Shown here: positions 9,601 to 17,004 of the stretch, piece by piece
How positions within the stretch are numbered: the first letter of the stretch is position 1
Layout: the number at the start of each line of letters is the position of its first letter
Source of the DNA: Actinomycetota bacterium
GTDB lineage: Bacteria > Actinomycetota > Acidimicrobiia > Acidimicrobiales > MedAcidi-G1
Assembly: GCA_014381945.1 (NCBI GenBank)
Contig: JACNKQ010000050.1
Span: 1-33,167, forward strand
DNA: 33,167 nucleotides
Direction: 5' to 3'
Position numbers and translations under genes: made by a program
Notes under the pieces: model-generated
What the model was told of the DNA's origin: nothing
Databases searched by the model: none
Seen by the model: only the letters and a program-made list of their open reading frames with translations

Positions 9601-10388
9601 GCTGCGTCACGGTAGTTCCGACCGGTCGCAGCCACAGCACCGCCGACGACGATGGCGACGAGGCTCATCCATATGTTCACCCGCACGCCGGCGACCAGCG
9701 AGGCGTGGTCGATTCGCAGGCTCTCGACCCAGAGTCGGCCCAGGCCGTAGCCGCACACCCAAAGGCCGATGAGGCGACCAGGCTTCAGCACGCCACGGCG
9801 GTCCACACGAACCAGGACGGCCGCAAGGGCCAGGTTCCACAGACCCTCGTACAGGAACGTGGGGTGGAAGGTCTCGACAGCCAGGTGGGCTGCCGGACGG
9901 TGGTCGGTGTCGATGCTCAGGCCCCACGGCAGGTCGGTGGGCCGCCCGAAGAGCTCCTGGTTGAACCAGTTGCCCCAGCGGCCGATTGCCTGGGCAACCG
10001 GCAGGGTCGGGACCAGGGCGTCGAGCACCTTCGGCATCGAGATGCCCTGACGGCGGGCGATGAGCACGCCGACGATGACCCCGGCGGCCAGGCCTCCCGG
10101 GATGCCGAGCCCGCCCTGCCAGACGGCAGGCACGTCCTGCCAGCGGCCGCGGAACTTCTGCCAGTCGGTGGCCACGTGGTACAGGCGCGACCCGATGAGC
10201 CCGGCCGGCACGGCCCAGACGGCGATCGTCGCAATGTGGTCGGCGGTGCCGCCCTTGTCCACCCACCGTCGCTGGCCCCAGGAGACGGCCACCATCACGC
10301 CGAGGGCGATCATGATGCCGTAGCCGCGGATCTCGAGCGGCCCCAGGCCGAAGGAGCCCGCCGAAGGGCTGGGAATCGCCGCGATCAC
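9597..10388 (-). CDS. lgt: Prolipoprotein diacylglyceryl transferase
   Basis: Integral membrane enzyme that moves diacylglycerol from phosphatidylglycerol to the lipobox Cys of prelipoproteins. The 263-residue sequence has several hydrophobic segments and the Lgt signature GRWGNWFNQELFG at 136-148, preceded by the GGLGIPGG loop (92-99) and followed by HPTFLYEGLWNL. The length is standard. The start is GTG at 10388, overlapping the acyl-CoA dehydrogenase stop by 4 nt, and its own stop overlaps the cyclase start. In many actinobacteria lgt lies near trp genes; here it is between a flavin dehydrogenase and signalling/repair genes. Confidence 0.97.
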   Translation of the reverse strand: MIAAIPSPSAGSFGLGPLEIRGYGIMIALGVMVAVSWGQRRWVDKGGTADHIATIAVWAVPAGLIGSRLYHVATDWQKFRGRWQDVPAVWQGGLGIPGGLAAGVIVGVLIARRQGISMPKVLDALVPTLPVAQAIGRWGNWFNQELFGRPTDLPWGLSIDTDHRPAAHLAVETFHPTFLYEGLWNLALAAVLVRVDRRGVLKPGRLIGLWVCGYGLGRLWVESLRIDHASLVAGVRVNIWMSLVAIVVGGAVAATGRNYRDAA

Positions 10389-12193
10389 GTCAGGGGCTCA
10401 GCAAAGCGGTCGGCGCCGAGCGCCATCAGGTCGTCGAAGCCGGCGGTCACGGAGCCGAGGCGACCCCGGACCAGCGGCAGGTGCTGTTCGGCCCAGAACC
10501 GGGCGATCACGACCTTGTCCGCCAGGGCAGGATCGTCGTCGCCCGCGTCGGTACGGGCCCTGGCCGCCAGCGCCAGTCGGGCGAGCAGCCATCCGCCGAG
10601 GAGGTCTCCGAACATGCGCAGGTAGGGCGTGGCCCCGGCCAGCGCATGGCGGGGGTCGGCGAGGCCGTGCTCCATGAGCCAATCGGTGGCCTGGCGGAGG
10701 GCGTCGAGACCGTCGGCCAGGCCGCTGCGGATCGAGGCGAAGTCGTCACCCGCCGCCGTCAGAGCCACATCGAGGCTGCCGATCTCGTCGAGGAGGCCCT
10801 TCACGACCGCTCCACCGCCCATCGGGAGCTTCCGGCCGACCAGGTCCATGGCCTGGATGCCGTTGGTGCCCTCGTAGATGGGCGAGATGCGGGAATCGCG
10901 CAGGATCTGGGCCGCACCGGTCTCCTCGATGTAGCCGTAGCCGCCATGCACCTGGATTCCGATCGAGGCCATCTCGACGCCGAGGTCCGTGCTCCAGGCC
11001 TTGGAGATCGGGGTGAAGAGCTCGGCCCGGTCAGCGGCCGCCTGCCGGATGTCGGCGTCAGAATGGCGGGCGGCGACGTCGTTGGTCGCTGCGTTGAGGT
11101 ACAGCAGGCAGCGCATGGCGTCGACCGATGCGCGCATCGTGAGGAGCATGCGCCGAACATCGGGGTGTTCGACTATGGGCGATGACTCGCCCTTCGGGGC
11201 ACCGACTGCGCGTCCCTGTCTGCGCTCGCGGGCGAAGCCGGCCGCCAGTTGAAGGGCCCGCTCCGACACGGCGAGGCCCTCGATGCCGACGCCGAGGCGG
11301 GCGTTGTTCATCATCGTGAACATGATCCGCATGCCCTGGTGCTCCTCGCCGATGAGGTAGCCCACGGCGCCGTCCCCGGCTTCGCCGTAGGACATCACGC
11401 AGGTCGGGCTGGCGTGGAGGCCGAGCTTGTGCTCGACGGATACGCAGGTGAGGTCGTTGCGATCGCCGATGCCGCCGTCCTCGTCGACGAGGTACTTGGG
11501 CACCACGAAGCAGGAGATGCCCCGGGTGCCCGGCGGGCTGGCGGGCGTGCGGGCGAGCACGAGGTGGATGATGTTGTCGGTCAGCTCGTGCTCGCCGAAC
11601 GTGATGAAGATCTTGGTGCCGAAGATGCGGTGGGTGCCGTCGGCCTGCGGTTCCGCCCTCGTCGTGAGCGCACCGACGTCGGAACCCGCCTGGGGTTCCG
11701 TGAGGTTCATGGTGCCGGTCCACTCTCCGGAGACCATCCGCGGCAGGAAGGCCTCCTTGAGGTGCTCGTCCCCGAACGTCTGGATGGCGTCGATGGCGCC
11801 GACCGTCAGGAGCGGCCCCATGGTCCAGGACCGGCAGGCCGTGCCGAGCAACTCGGTCATCACGGTCTGGATCAGCGCCGGGAAGCCACCACCGCCGTAG
11901 TCGGGGTCCTGGGTCACGGCGCCCCATCCTGCGGCCAGGTACCGGTCGTAGGCGTCGTGGAAGGCCTGCGGGACCGTGACGACGCCATCGGTTACCGAGC
12001 AGCCCTCGGCGTCGCCGATGCGGTGGGTCGGAGCGACGACCTCCTCCACGAAGCGGCCGAACTCGTCGAGCACGCCATCGACGGTTTCGGGGTCCACGTG
12101 TTCGAAACCCGGCAGGCCACAGATGCCTTCCAGATCGGCGACCTCGCGCAGGACGAGGCGGATGTCGGCCAGCGGTGCCCGGTAGTCGCTCAC
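10385..12193 (-). CDS. Acyl-CoA dehydrogenase, DmdC-like long form
   Basis: A 602-residue FAD acyl-CoA dehydrogenase with the extra C-terminal domain of the FadE5/DmdC group. The N-terminal block YRAPLADIRLVL (4-15) is typical of 3-methylmercaptopropionyl-CoA dehydrogenase (DmdC). Other marks are TEPQAGSDVG (165-174) at the flavin site, VHGGYGY (415-421) and the catalytic base E441 in IYEGTNGIQAMDL. Family members oxidise either methylthiopropionyl-CoA from DMSP or ordinary acyl-CoAs, and the substrate cannot be fixed from sequence. No other dmd gene is nearby. The frame is open to 12439, but the GTG at 12193 matches the family N-terminus and follows a -10 box by 7 nt, so the transcript is probably leaderless. 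Confidence 0.9.
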   Translation of the reverse strand: MSDYRAPLADIRLVLREVADLEGICGLPGFEHVDPETVDGVLDEFGRFVEEVVAPTHRIGDAEGCSVTDGVVTVPQAFHDAYDRYLAAGWGAVTQDPDYGGGGFPALIQTVMTELLGTACRSWTMGPLLTVGAIDAIQTFGDEHLKEAFLPRMVSGEWTGTMNLTEPQAGSDVGALTTRAEPQADGTHRIFGTKIFITFGEHELTDNIIHLVLARTPASPPGTRGISCFVVPKYLVDEDGGIGDRNDLTCVSVEHKLGLHASPTCVMSYGEAGDGAVGYLIGEEHQGMRIMFTMMNNARLGVGIEGLAVSERALQLAAGFARERRQGRAVGAPKGESSPIVEHPDVRRMLLTMRASVDAMRCLLYLNAATNDVAARHSDADIRQAAADRAELFTPISKAWSTDLGVEMASIGIQVHGGYGYIEETGAAQILRDSRISPIYEGTNGIQAMDLVGRKLPMGGGAVVKGLLDEIGSLDVALTAAGDDFASIRSGLADGLDALRQATDWLMEHGLADPRHALAGATPYLRMFGDLLGGWLLARLALAARARTDAGDDDPALADKVVIARFWAEQHLPLVRGRLGSVTAGFDDLMALGADRFAEPLT

Positions 12194-12200
12194 GGCTTGC

Positions 12201-12206
12201 AGAATA
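12201..12206 (-). promoter_or_regulatory. -10 box of leaderless acyl-CoA dehydrogenase transcript
   Basis: TATTCT on the minus strand ends 7 nt before the GTG at 12193, so transcription would begin at or next to the start codon. No ribosome binding site is present. No convincing -35 hexamer is seen in the GC-rich stretch behind it. Confidence 0.5.
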
Positions 12207-12245
12207 CCGCCGTAGCCACCCGCTGCCCGTGGCGGGCCCCGACAC

Positions 12246-12276
12246 CTGACCCCCGGCGAGACCGCTCCCGTACACT
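12246..12276 (+). promoter_or_regulatory. Promoter of the 12.3-17.0 kb operon
   Basis: CTGACC (12246-12251) and TACACT (12271-12276) are separated by 19 bp, the same hexamers and spacing as in the metX promoter. The start site should fall on or next to A12283, the first base of an ATG. Confidence 0.6.
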
Positions 12277-12282
12277 CCCCGG

Positions 12283-12324
12283 ATGACCGCCATCGCCCCC
12301 ATCCGGTCCGGTATCCGACGATGA
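12283..12324 (+). CDS. Leaderless 13-codon mini-ORF (uORF)
   Basis: The ATG at 12283 lies 6 nt after the -10 box, so the mRNA should begin with this codon and need no ribosome binding site. It encodes MTAIAPIRSGIRR and stops at TGA 12322-12324, which overlaps the ATG of the 572-residue gene (ATGA at 12321). The overlap would hand terminating ribosomes to the main gene, which itself lacks a Shine-Dalgarno sequence. The last two sense codons are both CGA, an uncommon arginine codon here, so ribosome pausing could tune expression. Expression and regulation are inferred; the reading frame and the overlap are direct observations. Confidence 0.5.
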   Translation: MTAIAPIRSGIRR

Positions 12325-14039
12325 ACGGGACGGCAGTCCGACTCCGCGGCCTCGACGAGTTGCTGTCGGACCGACGCCGCGAACTCCGGTCCCCGGAGGT
12401 TGTCATGGCGCCCCGCCAACTGGGCGCCGCACGGCTCACCCGCTACAGCTTCAGCCGCACCCTGCTGCGGCGGGCGGCACGCGAGGGCTGGCGGTCCCGC
12501 CTGGTAGAGCTCGAGATGGACGCTGAGGGTCGCGGCCACGCCATCTACCGCACCGAAATCAACGGTCGGGAGTTCGACTTCGTGGCCTTCACCACCACGA
12601 TCGACGAGTCGCTCCACACCGACCGGGTAATCGCCGAGGCCTGGGAGGTGAGCGGCGCCCTCGTCGATGGAGCCGTCGACGCCGACTACCTCGAGGTGCT
12701 GCGCCGGGAGGTGCCACGCCAGGAGGACGCCCGCCTGGACCCGCGGGTCCTCGTCCTGACGCGCGGCAATCGCAGCGTCCGCTTCTTCGGCTACCTGGTC
12801 GACCGGTTGGCCGCCGGCCTCCAGCCTGAGGTCGACAAGGTGGCCGACGCGGGCTACATCCTGCGCAGCACCGCCTTCTACGGGAACGGCAAGTTCGGCA
12901 TGCGCTCCTACCTCGGCTACCCGGAGGGCCACCCCCTGCGTGCTCCCTACCGGGCGCAGTTCCTGTGCGCCTGGTTGTTCCGGGAACTCGGCTACGACCA
13001 GGTCGAGTACTGCGCCGGCGTGCGCGGCGGCGACACCGCAGCCCGCTTCGGGGGCGACTGGCGGCACTACTTCGGTCTCGGCAACGCCACCGGCCTCGGG
13101 CTGGTCCCCTACGCCTTCAAGCATCCCCGGATCCTCAACGCCTGGGCCGGGGTCCGCGAACTGGCGCTCGCCAACGTCCGGGCGCTCCCCGCCACCCCGG
13201 AGCGCCTCGACGCCCTGCGCCGCTGGACCGACCGGGCGTTCGTCCACTTCACGACCCTCGGTGGTGCCGACCGGCCGCCGTGGCTGGGGCCGGCCTCGAT
13301 CGCGGAACGGGCACGCCTCGTCCGTGCACGGATCGACGAGTTCGCCGACGGGCCCGCCCCGTTCGAGGCCCTGTACCGCTGGTCCGAGGACCAGGACGTC
13401 GAGACCGGCGAACTCGTCGTCTCGCTCCTCATCGAACTCGACGAAGGGCTCGACGACGACCTGGTCGACGACCTCCTGCGCGTCGACGAGGAGGTCGTGG
13501 TCGATCCGCTCACGACAACCGGCGACCTGCGGCGCCTGTTCGATGAGCGCTACCCCTGGCTCGATGACCTCGGACTCGACGGGACCGGCGAGGGGCACTA
13601 CTGGTGGGTTATCTCCGACAACAGCGACGAGCCGCGGCGGGCCGAGCGCTCCGTGCTCTCACCCGACAACCACGATGTGGCGATCGACGTGGCCCGCCGT
13701 CTCCATGCCCTGCGATGCAGCCTCGACGAGCTGCCGGGAGACACCGCCGTCGGCACCCTGCTCGCCGAGCGCCCCCGCCACGGCAACGCCGTCCTGCGGC
13801 TACTCGGCAACGACCAGCCCTATGGCGAACCACGCGACAACGCCTGCGCCGCCGACTTCCTTCCGCTCGAACTCCAGCGCTTCCAGTTGGCGATGTACGG
13901 CATGGACAACTTCTCGCCGAAGTCCACCGACTGGCTGCGGGTGACGCTGTTCCAGGGGGCGCCCCGCATCGACGACCTCGGCCCCGACACGACCGACGAC
14001 TGGGTGTGGCCGCCACGCCCCACGGAGGCTTCCCCATGA
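12321..14039 (+). CDS. Uncharacterised 572-residue protein, first gene of the cluster
   Basis: A large soluble protein of no family I recognise. There is no signal peptide, membrane segment or nucleotide-binding loop. Distinct blocks that may mark an active site are STAFYGNGKFGMRSY (183-197), YCAGVRGGDTAARFGGDWRHYFGLGNATG (230-258, where the acidic and aromatic residues stand out) and MDNFSPKSTDWLRVT near the C-terminus. A very acidic segment covers about 372-396. Its stop overlaps the dipeptidase start by 4 nt and its own start overlaps the mini-ORF stop, so the three are coupled. Strong GC-rich third positions argue for a real gene. Together with the following oxidoreductase it may serve an unknown catabolic route. 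Confidence 0.85.
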   Translation: MNGTAVRLRGLDELLSDRRRELRSPEVVMAPRQLGAARLTRYSFSRTLLRRAAREGWRSRLVELEMDAEGRGHAIYRTEINGREFDFVAFTTTIDESLHTDRVIAEAWEVSGALVDGAVDADYLEVLRREVPRQEDARLDPRVLVLTRGNRSVRFFGYLVDRLAAGLQPEVDKVADAGYILRSTAFYGNGKFGMRSYLGYPEGHPLRAPYRAQFLCAWLFRELGYDQVEYCAGVRGGDTAARFGGDWRHYFGLGNATGLGLVPYAFKHPRILNAWAGVRELALANVRALPATPERLDALRRWTDRAFVHFTTLGGADRPPWLGPASIAERARLVRARIDEFADGPAPFEALYRWSEDQDVETGELVVSLLIELDEGLDDDLVDDLLRVDEEVVVDPLTTTGDLRRLFDERYPWLDDLGLDGTGEGHYWWVISDNSDEPRRAERSVLSPDNHDVAIDVARRLHALRCSLDELPGDTAVGTLLAERPRHGNAVLRLLGNDQPYGEPRDNACAADFLPLELQRFQLAMYGMDNFSPKSTDWLRVTLFQGAPRIDDLGPDTTDDWVWPPRPTEASP

Positions 14040-14989
14040 TCATCGACGGCCTCCAGATCAACGACTGGAGCCGGCCGGTCGTCGAGCAGGTGCGCTCCGG
14101 CGGCATCGACGTCGTCCACGCGACCTGTGGAGTCTGGGAGGACATGGCCGGCACCTTGACCCGCATCGGTTCGTGGCGGCACTTCGCCCGCCAGAACGCC
14201 GACTTGGTCCGCATCGTCACGAGCGTCGCCGATATCGAGCAGGCCGCCTCGGACGACGTGCTCGGCATCGTGCTGGGCTTCCAGAACAGCTCGATGCTGG
14301 GCGACGACCCCGAGATGGCCGGCATCTTCGCCGACGTCGGCGTCCGCGTCATCCAGCTCACCTACAACATCGCCAACCACCTGGGGTCGAGCTGCTGGGA
14401 ACCCCACGACGGGGGCCTGACGCGGGCCGGCCACCGCATGGTCGCCGCCCTCGACGACGCCGGCGTCCTCATCGACATCTCCCACGTGGGCAACGCGACC
14501 GGCCGTGACGCCATCGACGCCTCGGCCAACCCGATCGCCGTCACCCACGGCAACCCGGCCTCGTTCTGCGACTCGCCCCGCAACAAGCCCGACGACCTAA
14601 TCCGGGCCCTCGCCGACCGCGACGGCATCATCGGCTGCACGCTGTACCCACTTTTCATGGGCGGCGCCGACGTACCCCGCTCCACCTACTGCCGGATGCT
14701 CGCCGACCTGGCCGACATGGTCGGCGTCGAACACGTCGCCATCGGAACCGACGCCGTCGTCGGCTGGAGCCCCGACGCCCTCGGCTGGATGCGCAACGGA
14801 CGGTGGAACCGCCCCAAGAACCCCGACGAGGTCCCGCCGTTCCCGCCCTGGCCGGCGTGGTTCCAGGGCCCCCAGGACTTCCCCTCCCTCGCCGAGGGGC
14901 TCGACGAGGTCGGCTTCCTCCCCGAGGAGCGCGACGCCGTCCTCGGCGACAACTGGATGCGCCTGTTCGGACAGGTCTTCGGAGGCTGA
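14036..14989 (+). CDS. Peptidase M19 (membrane dipeptidase) family protein with incomplete metal site
   Basis: A 317-residue TIM-barrel protein of the renal-dipeptidase (M19) family, without signal peptide. Canonical enzymes hold two zinc ions through HxD near the N-terminus, a bridging Glu, two His and an Asp. Here the N-terminus reads IIDGLQINDW (2-11) with no HxD, and the bridging position reads GFQN (81-84). H150 (DISH), H171 (VTHGN) and D239 (IGTDA) are kept. The same replacements occur, as I recall, in the M19 proteins encoded beside dimethylglycine and choline breakdown genes of Pseudomonas (PA5396-type), whose reaction is unclear. A role as an amidohydrolase for a small molecule is more likely than as a general dipeptidase. 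It overlaps the preceding stop (ATGA). Confidence 0.88.
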   Translation: MIIDGLQINDWSRPVVEQVRSGGIDVVHATCGVWEDMAGTLTRIGSWRHFARQNADLVRIVTSVADIEQAASDDVLGIVLGFQNSSMLGDDPEMAGIFADVGVRVIQLTYNIANHLGSSCWEPHDGGLTRAGHRMVAALDDAGVLIDISHVGNATGRDAIDASANPIAVTHGNPASFCDSPRNKPDDLIRALADRDGIIGCTLYPLFMGGADVPRSTYCRMLADLADMVGVEHVAIGTDAVVGWSPDALGWMRNGRWNRPKNPDEVPPFPPWPAWFQGPQDFPSLAEGLDEVGFLPEERDAVLGDNWMRLFGQVFGG

Positions 14990-14995
14990 CGGGCC

Positions 14996-15562
14996 GTGGC
15001 CGTGACCGTCTCCCCGCGTGAGGTCGTCGACGAGGTGCACCGCGCCAGCCGGGCCCTGGGCTGCGATGCCGACCTCGCCGACCGGCTCGCCGTCGAGGTC
15101 GCATTCTGCGAGGTCCACCACGGAGGTGGAGTTGCCGCCTGGGCCGAGCTGGTCGCCACCGGCGACGGCCGGCTGGCCGAGGCCGCCCTTGCGCCGTTCC
15201 GGCTGGCGGACGCCGAGGTCGCGCTCCGAACCGACGGATCCACTCGACTCGACCTCGATCCGCCCGTCCCGCTGGCCGTGCTGGCCCGTTCGCTGTGGGA
15301 CCTCGAGCGGCGTGGCGTCCGCTGCACGCCCGACCCCGAAGGGTGCCCGGGCACCGAGTTGCTCTCGACCCTGGAACTCGTCGCCCGGGATCCGGACCCC
15401 GTGGCCGGCGAACGGGTCGCCGAACGCTCGCAGGAGGCCCTGAACCACGGGGTCGACGTCGATGACGACCTCTGGCGGCTCCTGCACGACCGGGCGAGGG
15501 CGTTCCTAGTCGCCGAGTCGGTCCTAGATGCAGTGCACGCCGTCGGGGAGGGTGGGATCTGA
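14996..15562 (+). CDS. DUF3726-like hypothetical protein
   Basis: A 188-residue helical protein starting at GTG 6 nt after the M19 gene. The N-terminal pattern (SPREVVDEVHRASRALGCDADLADRLAVEVAF) resembles the opening of DUF3726 proteins (SLNEIE..ARKAARGAG..WGLAEEAG), a family often encoded beside Ldh-type oxidoreductases. The assignment is tentative. The middle section has alternating small and hydrophobic residues and no visible catalytic motif. The stop overlaps the next start by one base (TGATG), so the two products are probably made in step, perhaps as partners in a complex. Confidence 0.75.
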   Translation: MAVTVSPREVVDEVHRASRALGCDADLADRLAVEVAFCEVHHGGGVAAWAELVATGDGRLAEAALAPFRLADAEVALRTDGSTRLDLDPPVPLAVLARSLWDLERRGVRCTPDPEGCPGTELLSTLELVARDPDPVAGERVAERSQEALNHGVDVDDDLWRLLHDRARAFLVAESVLDAVHAVGEGGI

Positions 15563-16548
15563 TGCCGACGGTCACCCTCGACGCCGTCGAATCGGCCTCC
15601 CGCCGGGCACTGGAGCGCCACGGCTGTCGGCCCGACATCGCCGCACACGTCGCCGACGCCGTCCGGGTGGCCGAGGGAAACGGGAACCGCATCTGCGGCC
15701 TCTACTACCTCGAGAGCTACTGCCGGCAGCTCGAGACCGGCCGGATCGCCGGGGACGTCGATCCGGTGGTCACCGTGGACCGACCCGGGGCGGTGCGCGT
15801 CGACGGACGGCTCGGCTTCGCCCAGTCGGCGTTCGCCGCCGCCCTCCCCCACGCCGTCGCCGCCGCTCGCGCCAACGGGATCTGCGGCCTCTCCGTCGAG
15901 CACACGCACACCTGCACCTCGCTCGGCTACTTCACCGAGCAGTTCGCGCGTGAGGGACTCCTGGCCATCGGCGCCACGAACGCCACTCCACGTGTGGCGC
16001 CACCCGGCGGCTCGACGGCGGTGCTCGGCACCAACCCGTTCGCCATGGCGGTCCCCGACGGCGACGGCGGCATCGCCTTCCAGTTCGACTTCAGCACCAG
16101 CGCCGTGGCGCTGGGCAAGATCACGATGGCTGCGGCGGCCGGCGAGGAGATCCCCCTCGGCTGGGCCGTGGACGCCGACGGCAACCCCACCACCGACCCC
16201 GATGCGGCACTCGCCGGCTCACTGGTCTCCGCCGGTGGCTACAAGGGCTACGGGCTCGGCCTCATGGTCGAGGTGCTGGCCGCCTGCCTGACCGGGTCGC
16301 GCCTCAGCGTCGACGTCCCGCCGCTCAAGGCGCCCGAGGGTCCACCTCATGACCTCGGACAGTTCTATGTGGTGATCGACCCGGCGGGCTACAGCGGCGA
16401 CGGCTTCGCCGAGCGCCTGACCGCACTGGCCGCCTCCATCGCCGAGCAACCGGGCGCCCGCCTGCCGGGTGCCAACCGGGCCGTGCCCGATACTGTCGAT
16501 CTCGAACCAGACCTCTGGGAAGCCACACAGGCACTCGCCACAGACTGA
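15562..16548 (+). CDS. Ldh-family (malate/L-sulfolactate/ureidoglycolate dehydrogenase-like) oxidoreductase
   Basis: A 328-residue NAD(P)-dependent oxidoreductase of the type-2 malate/L-lactate dehydrogenase family, unrelated to Rossmann-fold LDHs. Family blocks are the histidine-rich catalytic loop VEHTHTCTSLGYF (where relatives have a HxGxAGYY-like motif), GTNPFAMAVP, FDFSTSAVALGKI, WAVDADGNPTTDP and GGYKGYGLGLMVEVL, which binds cofactor. Members reduce 2-oxo acids or cyclic imines such as piperideine-2-carboxylate, or act on sulfolactate or ureidoglycolate. The substrate cannot be told here. The catalytic loop differs from the common form (THTCTS instead of NHFGAA), which hints at an unusual substrate. 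It overlaps the DUF3726-like gene by one base. Confidence 0.9.
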   Translation: MPTVTLDAVESASRRALERHGCRPDIAAHVADAVRVAEGNGNRICGLYYLESYCRQLETGRIAGDVDPVVTVDRPGAVRVDGRLGFAQSAFAAALPHAVAAARANGICGLSVEHTHTCTSLGYFTEQFAREGLLAIGATNATPRVAPPGGSTAVLGTNPFAMAVPDGDGGIAFQFDFSTSAVALGKITMAAAAGEEIPLGWAVDADGNPTTDPDAALAGSLVSAGGYKGYGLGLMVEVLAACLTGSRLSVDVPPLKAPEGPPHDLGQFYVVIDPAGYSGDGFAERLTALAASIAEQPGARLPGANRAVPDTVDLEPDLWEATQALATD

Positions 16549-16557
16549 GAAGCCGCC

Positions 16558-17004
16558 ATGGACAGCGCAACCGCGATCACGAACCTGTTGTACCGGTACG
16601 CCGAACTGTTCGACGCCGGCGAGCACGAGGCCTGCGCAGACCTGTTCGCCCATGCACGGATCATCCTCGACCCGGAAGCCCCCCTGGTGGTCGACCGCGA
16701 CGGGATCCTCGAGGTCTGGCGGGCACTGGTGGTCATCCACGATGACGGAACGCCGCGCACGAAGCACGTCGTGACCAACCCGATCCTCGACATCGACGAG
16801 GCCGCCGGCACCGCCACCTGCCGCAGCTACTACACCGTGCTCCAGCAGGTCGACGACGGGCCGCTGCAACCCGTGGCGGCCGGTCGCTACCACGACCGCT
16901 TCGAACGCGTCGACGGCGAGTGGCGGTTCGCGGAACGCGACTACTCGCGCCTCGACCTCACCGGCGAACTCGGCGCGCACCTGCACACCGACCCGCGGGC
17001 CTGA
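16558..17004 (+). CDS. NTF2-like (SnoaL-like) protein
   Basis: A 148-residue protein with the cone-shaped NTF2-like fold expected from its helix-rich N-terminus (ITNLLYRYAELFDAGEHEACADLFA) and later strands (KHVVTNPILDID, TCRSYYTVLQQ, GRYHDRFERVDGEWRFAERDYSRLDL). Similar proteins act as small hydratases, isomerases or ring-hydroxylating-enzyme subunits. D19 and the KHVVTNP His are placed where relatives carry catalytic residues. It starts 9 nt after the oxidoreductase gene and is the last member of the operon. The next gene, tdk, is convergent after a 17-bp gap that holds only a short CCCC/GGGG dyad, so no strong terminator is seen. Confidence 0.85.
   Translation: MDSATAITNLLYRYAELFDAGEHEACADLFAHARIILDPEAPLVVDRDGILEVWRALVVIHDDGTPRTKHVVTNPILDIDEAAGTATCRSYYTVLQQVDDGPLQPVAAGRYHDRFERVDGEWRFAERDYSRLDLTGELGAHLHTDPRA

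Follow-up and report, generated by a model that had tools for sequence, protein, structure and literature searches.

A candidate acidimicrobial branch of a bacterial module for the breakdown of N-methylated ring betaines

We analysed a 33,167-nucleotide stretch of DNA (contig JACNKQ010000050.1 of assembly GCA_014381945.1; hereafter the window) from an Acidimicrobiales bacterium of the MedAcidi-G1 group, the genome of which measures 2.49 Mb and is 97.5% complete. The subject of this study is an operon of five intact open reading frames on the + strand, named here genes A to E, which spans positions 12321-17004. The 572-residue product of gene A (12321..14039) belongs to a family that neither Pfam nor NCBIfam models and is proposed below to be a ring-opening catalyst. 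Gene B (14036..14989) encodes an M19-family amidohydrolase (PF01244, 9e-63) with a rebuilt metal site and a proposed N-formyl (amide) hydrolase function. Gene C (14996..15562) encodes a 188-residue protein in the position held elsewhere by DUF3726 proteins, with a predicted Ldh_2 fold lacking the central NADPH domain, and is the proposed partner of A (or D). Gene D (15562..16548) encodes an Ldh_2-family oxidoreductase (PF02615, 5.5e-86), and gene E (16558..17004) a SnoaL/NTF2-like accessory protein (PF13577, 9.3e-23). The domain scores of B (Peptidase_M19, 212.8 bits), D (Ldh_2, 289.1 bits) and E (SnoaL_4, 81 bits) compare with cut-offs of 26, 38.8 and 24 bits, respectively. A and B overlap by 4 nt, B and C are separated by 6 nt, C and D overlap by 1 nt, and 9 nt separate D from E. 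An earlier note, made from the sequence of the window alone, had described five same-strand genes with these spacings, the last of them encoding an NTF2-like protein, and both points agree with our data; however, it placed the start of the operon at 12246, which is too far upstream, as the proteins of sister species align from residue 1 of a gene A that starts at the ATG at 12321.

The product of gene A had been called unknown, and it indeed belongs to no family of the libraries searched: no Pfam or NCBIfam model matched it at E values up to 1, and a profile of A found nothing credible among the sequences of the PDB (best E 0.076). The AlphaFold2 (AF2) model of A is confident (predicted local distance difference test score, pLDDT, 86.7; predicted template modelling score, pTM, 0.90). 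No credible match to a solved structure was found (best values: E 0.14 with Foldseek, Z 4.8 with VIA) in searches that used the whole model rather than separately folded domains, which leaves room for a known fold in one part of the protein. In A, 38 positions are invariant among the 48 sequences compared, which come from a haloarchaeon as well as from Acidimicrobiia and Proteobacteria.

The protein encoded by gene C had been described as DUF3726-like. This holds for its place in the operon, which is that of the proteobacterial DUF3726 proteins, but the DUF3726 model (PF12525), which matches those proteins, gives no match to C, and the relation rests on position. Searches of Pfam and NCBIfam with C yielded only a sub-threshold Ldh-type match (E 0.033). 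However, the AF2 model of C (pLDDT 91.8) matches the 15 Ldh_2 entries listed, with Z scores of 8.5-12.7 and root-mean-square deviations of 3.0-4.0 Å over 138-170 residues; the next, unrelated entry has a Z score of 3.7. The first 168 residues of C cover the full length of these ~340-residue targets, and weak profile matches place the N-terminus of C on residues 1-62 of D and its C-terminus on residues 273-327. Direct profile comparison of C with D is weak (E 0.0034, probability 9.5%; E 7e-4 for the N-terminal 60 residues) and convincing only when combined with the fold match. The central part of Ldh_2 proteins holds the NADPH-binding (SESAS) domain. As C is short and yet spans both ends of the Ldh_2 fold, the missing piece is this central part, and C is, as modelled, an Ldh_2 fold without its NADPH domain. 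No counterpart of C was found among viral structures, nor by tblastn in plasmids, for which C is too divergent. In Mesorhizobium sp. 131-2-1 (locus L101:8938-11382), A and the DUF3726 protein are fused into a single 814-residue polypeptide, which makes a complex between A and its C-type neighbour probable. In the haloarchaeon Natrinema versiforme (L050:10082-12612), the gene after A encodes a 317-residue protein with an Ldh_2 match over residues 6-138 (4.8e-9); it may be intermediate between the Ldh_2 and the DUF3726-type proteins.

The active sites of both B and D depart from those of their families, as the earlier note had read from the sequence. In B, the HxD motif is lost and the metal-bridging Glu is replaced by Gln83, while His150, His171 and Asp239 are retained; this pattern holds in all eight sequences compared and leaves the two-zinc ligand set of M19 dipeptidases (HxD, Glu, His, His) incomplete. 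Because HxD and the bridging Glu are lost, B is more likely a one-metal amidohydrolase than a dipeptidase. Its best match among solved sequences is 2i5g (PA5396), encoded next to dgcAB in Pseudomonas; the printed alignment shows that 2i5g also has no HxD and carries Gln for Glu, although its dgcAB context differs from that of the window. In D, the loop S-H-G-x-x-R has Cys45 in place of His and Tyr49 in place of Arg. Replacement of the catalytic Arg by Tyr is common to all ten D sequences, that of His by Cys is confined to Acidimicrobiia, and these changed loop residues suggest that the chemistry of D may be altered in the group of the window. The nearest solved structures to D are those of the delta1-piperideine-2-carboxylate reductase DpkA (1wtj/2cwf), an Ldh-family C=N reductase that also accepts N-methyl imines of 2-oxo acids (PMC6110843). 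The likeness thus concerns C=N reduction next to a carboxylate; the difference lies in the loop, in which the proteobacterial operon copies retain the His only and the window copy neither residue.

Of 296 genomes of the class, nine contain gene A, and a genome collection yielded 35 loci with it; in Actinomycetota at large it is rare (5 of 396 sampled genomes). Over the 35-row alignment, identity to the window copy ranges from 36 to 85%, the nearest copies being those of 'Candidatus Microthrix sp. UBA2983' and of two other Acidimicrobiales/Acidimicrobiaceae metagenome-assembled genomes (79-84%). B and C adjoin A in most of the 35 loci; A-B-C is the core of the operon, and its linkage is beyond chance. 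Six MedAcidi-G2B-type genomes have no B beside A, yet hold an M19 homologue elsewhere. Gene D is present, linked or elsewhere, in most genomes: of 11 genomes without a linked D that were searched whole, six had a close homologue at another place, and the remaining five had only distant Ldh_2 proteins or nothing. Gene E was found next to the operon only in the genus of the window (four further loci). The five-gene unit of the earlier note was therefore not borne out, since E was seen in one genus only and D is often unlinked or, in one group, missing. A betaine-type ATP-binding cassette (ABC) transporter lies just upstream of the operon in nine acidimicrobial loci, its ATP component being 52-57% identical to the proteobacterial one. 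RidA was not found in the acidimicrobial loci. A locus from another family of the same order carries an A copy of proteobacterial type (type I, see below) that groups with those of Aminobacter and Shinella, which suggests transfer between phyla.

Divergent from the operon lies a gene for an acyl-CoA dehydrogenase with a PF12806 C-terminus (10385..12193, - strand; Pfam), which the earlier note had suggested might be fed by the route. This was not supported: the dehydrogenase adjoins the operon in one group of loci and is absent beside it in the others, and the loci that have it also share further flanking clusters, placed by sequence as Lgt, thymidine kinase and NrdJ. Because it is confined to loci sharing flanking chromosomal genes, we rejected it as a pathway step, treat it as lineage synteny and place it outside the system.

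Outside the class, Alpha-, Beta- and Gammaproteobacteria carry relatives of A (31-39% identity) on plasmids and megaplasmids, as does a haloarchaeon, and the gene set is common to marine actinobacteria, roseobacters and rhizobia. Two arrangements were distinguished. Type I loci have the order LysR, aldehyde dehydrogenase (ALDH) - M19 - (BCCT) - A - DUF3726 - Ldh, where BCCT stands for a betaine/choline/carnitine transporter; the transporter is either BCCT, a glycine-betaine-type ABC system or, in Mesorhizobium, a branched-chain-type ABC system. The ALDH of the operon is closest to 2-oxoglutarate semialdehyde dehydrogenases. Type II loci (IclR - A - C - M19 - polyamine-type ABC, mostly with RidA) form a separate A clade, and in them the same A-C-M19 core probably serves another substrate. 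In the tree of A, the root of which is a midpoint for drawing only, a branch with 99/96 support sets Acidimicrobiia on the type I (Ldh) side, apart from type II. Five type II loci, including one on S. meliloti pSymB, were noted, some of them near gabT or acetolactate-synthase-like genes. A locus of Mesorhizobium ciceri (L106:9019-11420) has a very divergent, long-branched A next to genes for an ALDH and an ABC transporter, but neither M19 nor Ldh adjoins it.

In four type I loci (L051, L052, L077 and L080), the operon adjoins a beta-delta-alpha-gamma cluster annotated as sarcosine oxidase. The same cluster in Paracoccus, Aminobacter and Rhizobium adjoins a type III glutamine synthetase gene (gmaS-like) and three mgs-like genes, which is the layout of the N-methylglutamate pathway. 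In the tree of alpha subunits, the operon-linked and gmaS-linked copies form one group with 100/100 support, within which operon-linked copies are paired with gmaS-linked ones at two separate positions; reference sarcosine oxidases, one of them encoded next to glyA and another next to a BCCT transporter, lie outside it. Because its alpha subunits group with the gmaS/mgs-linked copies, apart from the reference sarcosine oxidases, the enzyme linked to the operon is most probably an N-methylglutamate dehydrogenase (Mgd). This grouping fits a sentence that cites a 2026 report for the participation of Mgd in homarine catabolism (PMC13390433).

The distribution of Ldh and RidA also points to function. 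Among the 15 proteobacterial loci that hold either gene, seven have Ldh without RidA (L048, L051, L052, L077, L080, L101, L108), eight have RidA without Ldh (L049, L053, L078, L079, L102, L103, L105, L107), and none has both. Were the loci independent of one another, a perfect 7/8 split would arise by chance once in 6435; their independence is incomplete. Two of the RidA loci (L049 and L107) are of type I and lie at two separate places on the A tree. Mgd adjoins Ldh loci only. RidA is known to pre-empt damage from imine/enamine intermediates (PMC4433059). As Ldh and RidA are mutually exclusive, and as DpkA reduces C=N bonds and RidA acts on imines or enamines, the shared intermediate is probably a 2-imino (enamine) acid, which would either yield an N-methyl amino acid on reduction or undergo hydrolysis. 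The rule suggested for such operons is Ldh with Mgd, or RidA without.

Taken together, we favour, at a probability of roughly 0.55, the reading that the operon belongs, as its acidimicrobial branch, to a widespread module for the degradation of an N-methylated ring betaine; homarine (N-methylpicolinate) or a compound closely resembling it would be the most likely substrate. The proteobacterial clusters of LysR and ALDH-M19-A-DUF3726-Ldh with betaine ABC or BCCT transporters argue for this reading. Computed in this study were gene content and linkage, the mgd grouping, the Ldh/RidA exclusivity, the fold of C and the A-DUF3726 fusion; from here we infer the substrate, the order of the steps and A as the ring-opening catalyst. 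As the other genes of the operon have an assigned chemistry, A is, by exclusion, the best candidate for that step. A together with C would open the ring at the carbon that adjoins the N-methylated nitrogen to give an N-formyl-N-methylamino semialdehyde: homarine (C7H7NO2), with O2 and 2H, would be cleaved between C5 and C6 to C7H9NO4. The ALDH found in the operons of sister species and Proteobacteria would then oxidise the semialdehyde to the acid (C7H9NO5), a C5 semialdehyde step that fits an enzyme nearest to 2-oxoglutarate semialdehyde dehydrogenases. The M19 protein would hydrolyse the N-formyl amide, taking up water and releasing HCOOH, to yield 2-methyliminoglutarate (C6H9NO4), and Ldh with NADPH would reduce this 2-(methylimino) acid to N-methylglutamate (C6H11NO4) or an analogue. 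N-methylglutamate dehydrogenase (MgdABCD) would finally convert N-methylglutamate to glutamate and a one-carbon unit; with RidA in place of Ldh, hydrolysis of the imine would release methylamine and leave a 2-oxo acid. The mass balance of the homarine route closes, as a matter of arithmetic only, and the lost carbon, the C5 aldehyde and the formyl amide would each match a gene. The earlier note had proposed a catabolic route for a small nitrogen- or sulfur-containing compound. A small nitrogen compound and an imine-reducing Ldh are well supported, and the substrate class can be narrowed to N-methylated, betaine-like compounds from which an N-methyl amino acid is formed; no sign of sulfur was found.

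Two known systems resemble this scheme. The trigonelline pathway, TgnABCD, combines oxidative opening of a pyridinium ring, an aldehyde dehydrogenase and an N-formyl amidohydrolase; it shares the step logic of the proposed route and serves as its precedent. However, TgnA and TgnB are recognisable flavin-dependent proteins, whereas A matches neither a flavin monooxygenase or flavin reductase family nor a fold in the PDB. The second system is the homarine operon of environmental bacteria, which Ferrer-Gonzalez et al. reportedly described in 2026 (Nat Microbiol 11:1531, cited in PMC13390433) and which is said to be named homABCDER, for five enzymes and a regulator. Five enzymes with one regulator in the proteobacterial relatives, the Mgd route and a betaine-like substrate are the points of likeness, and the pathway has probably already been reported in Proteobacteria. 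The window holds A, M19, the DUF3726-position protein and Ldh together, as do the proteobacterial type I loci that have Ldh, but has no adjacent ALDH, follows the order A-M19-C-D-E and has a changed Ldh active site. A LysR-type regulator lies beside proteobacterial loci; in the window, the immediate neighbours of the operon are other genes, and no search for LysR was made. We regard its operon as related to, and working like, the homarine-type operon; it is hom-like, and because the ALDH is missing beside it we do not file it as a proven member.

Several observations on the window's own copy and genome weigh against the homarine-type reading. An ALDH gene of ~485 codons lies between the acyl-CoA dehydrogenase gene and A in three sister species; in the window, the same place is a gap of 127 bp (12194..12320), and no close copy of the sister-species ALDH is found elsewhere in the genome (best 38% identity), where other ALDHs may serve the pathway. 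In searches of that genome run without a positive control, the betaine-binding protein gave weak partial matches only and BCCT gave none. A close mgd was not found either, the SoxA-like protein of the genome being 36% identical to MgdC; its soxBDA-like cluster (L081:10119-14511, G000:C58), the alpha subunit of which is 35-38% identical to MgdC and SoxA references, belongs by sequence to the heterotetrameric oxidase family, as a divergent member. In A we recognised no cofactor motif, and in D both the catalytic His and the Arg are lost. Finally, the acidimicrobial A clade sits on a long stem of 1.36 changes per site and, at 31-39% identity between the two A clades, the acidimicrobial substrate may therefore differ.

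This long stem is also an argument for an alternative that we judge less probable but worth serious attention, namely that module and chemistry are the same and that the acidimicrobial branch acts on another N-methylated or N-heterocyclic betaine (e.g., trigonelline, pyrrolidine betaine or an N-methyl lactam), homarine being the substrate of the proteobacterial branch. The type II loci, with IclR, a polyamine-type ABC system and mostly RidA, indicate that the core serves more than one pathway, and the His to Cys change in Ldh is specific to Acidimicrobiia; however, many acidimicrobial loci retain the betaine-type ABC, ALDH and Ldh genes, and on the A tree Acidimicrobiia fall on the Ldh side and not with type II. 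It is rather unlikely that the window copy is a decaying remnant of a pathway that the ancestor of the genus possessed in full and that is now being lost. Of the four compared species with an intact operon, that of the window alone lacks the ALDH, and in another genome of the genus (L011, G244:C56, 1501-2697) residues 1-208 of A run into residues 133-326 of D. This join reflects either a large internal deletion, of B, C and parts of A and D, or a misassembly, though, and in the window all five reading frames are intact, A is 81-85% identical to the sister copies and other ALDH genes are available in the genome. Breakdown of glycine betaine, choline or dimethylglycine, in which the operon would aid stepwise demethylation to glycine, follows the Pseudomonas analogy of the earlier note. 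It is very improbable despite the resemblance of B to 2i5g (the dgcAB neighbour PA5396) and despite the betaine transporters and annotated sarcosine oxidase genes nearby, as the linked oxidase falls in the N-methylglutamate dehydrogenase group of the mgd tree, the core contains no dgcAB or gbcAB, and such a route has no role for Ldh, ALDH or RidA.

The homarine-type reading has a bolder extension, which we offer tentatively: A would represent a new fold and a new enzyme class that opens N-methylpyridinium-like rings with C, a dedicated partner derived from Ldh_2 by loss of the NADPH domain; both Actinobacteria and Proteobacteria would employ the one A-C-M19 core on several N-heterocyclic compounds, and the presence of Ldh or RidA would decide whether the imine becomes an N-methyl amino acid or is hydrolysed. 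In the literature searched, we found no description of the acidimicrobial branch, of the origin of C, of the Ldh/RidA rule or of the fold of A. For the protein in the DUF3726 position, our data suggest an origin as a stripped-down Ldh_2 protein. Algal metabolites such as homarine and similar N-methylated betaines abound in seawater. If the proposed reading is true, the presence of the core in marine Acidimicrobiia would extend the breakdown of N-methylated betaines to another group of bacterioplankton, and A, with C, would be the place to look for a new ring-opening reaction.

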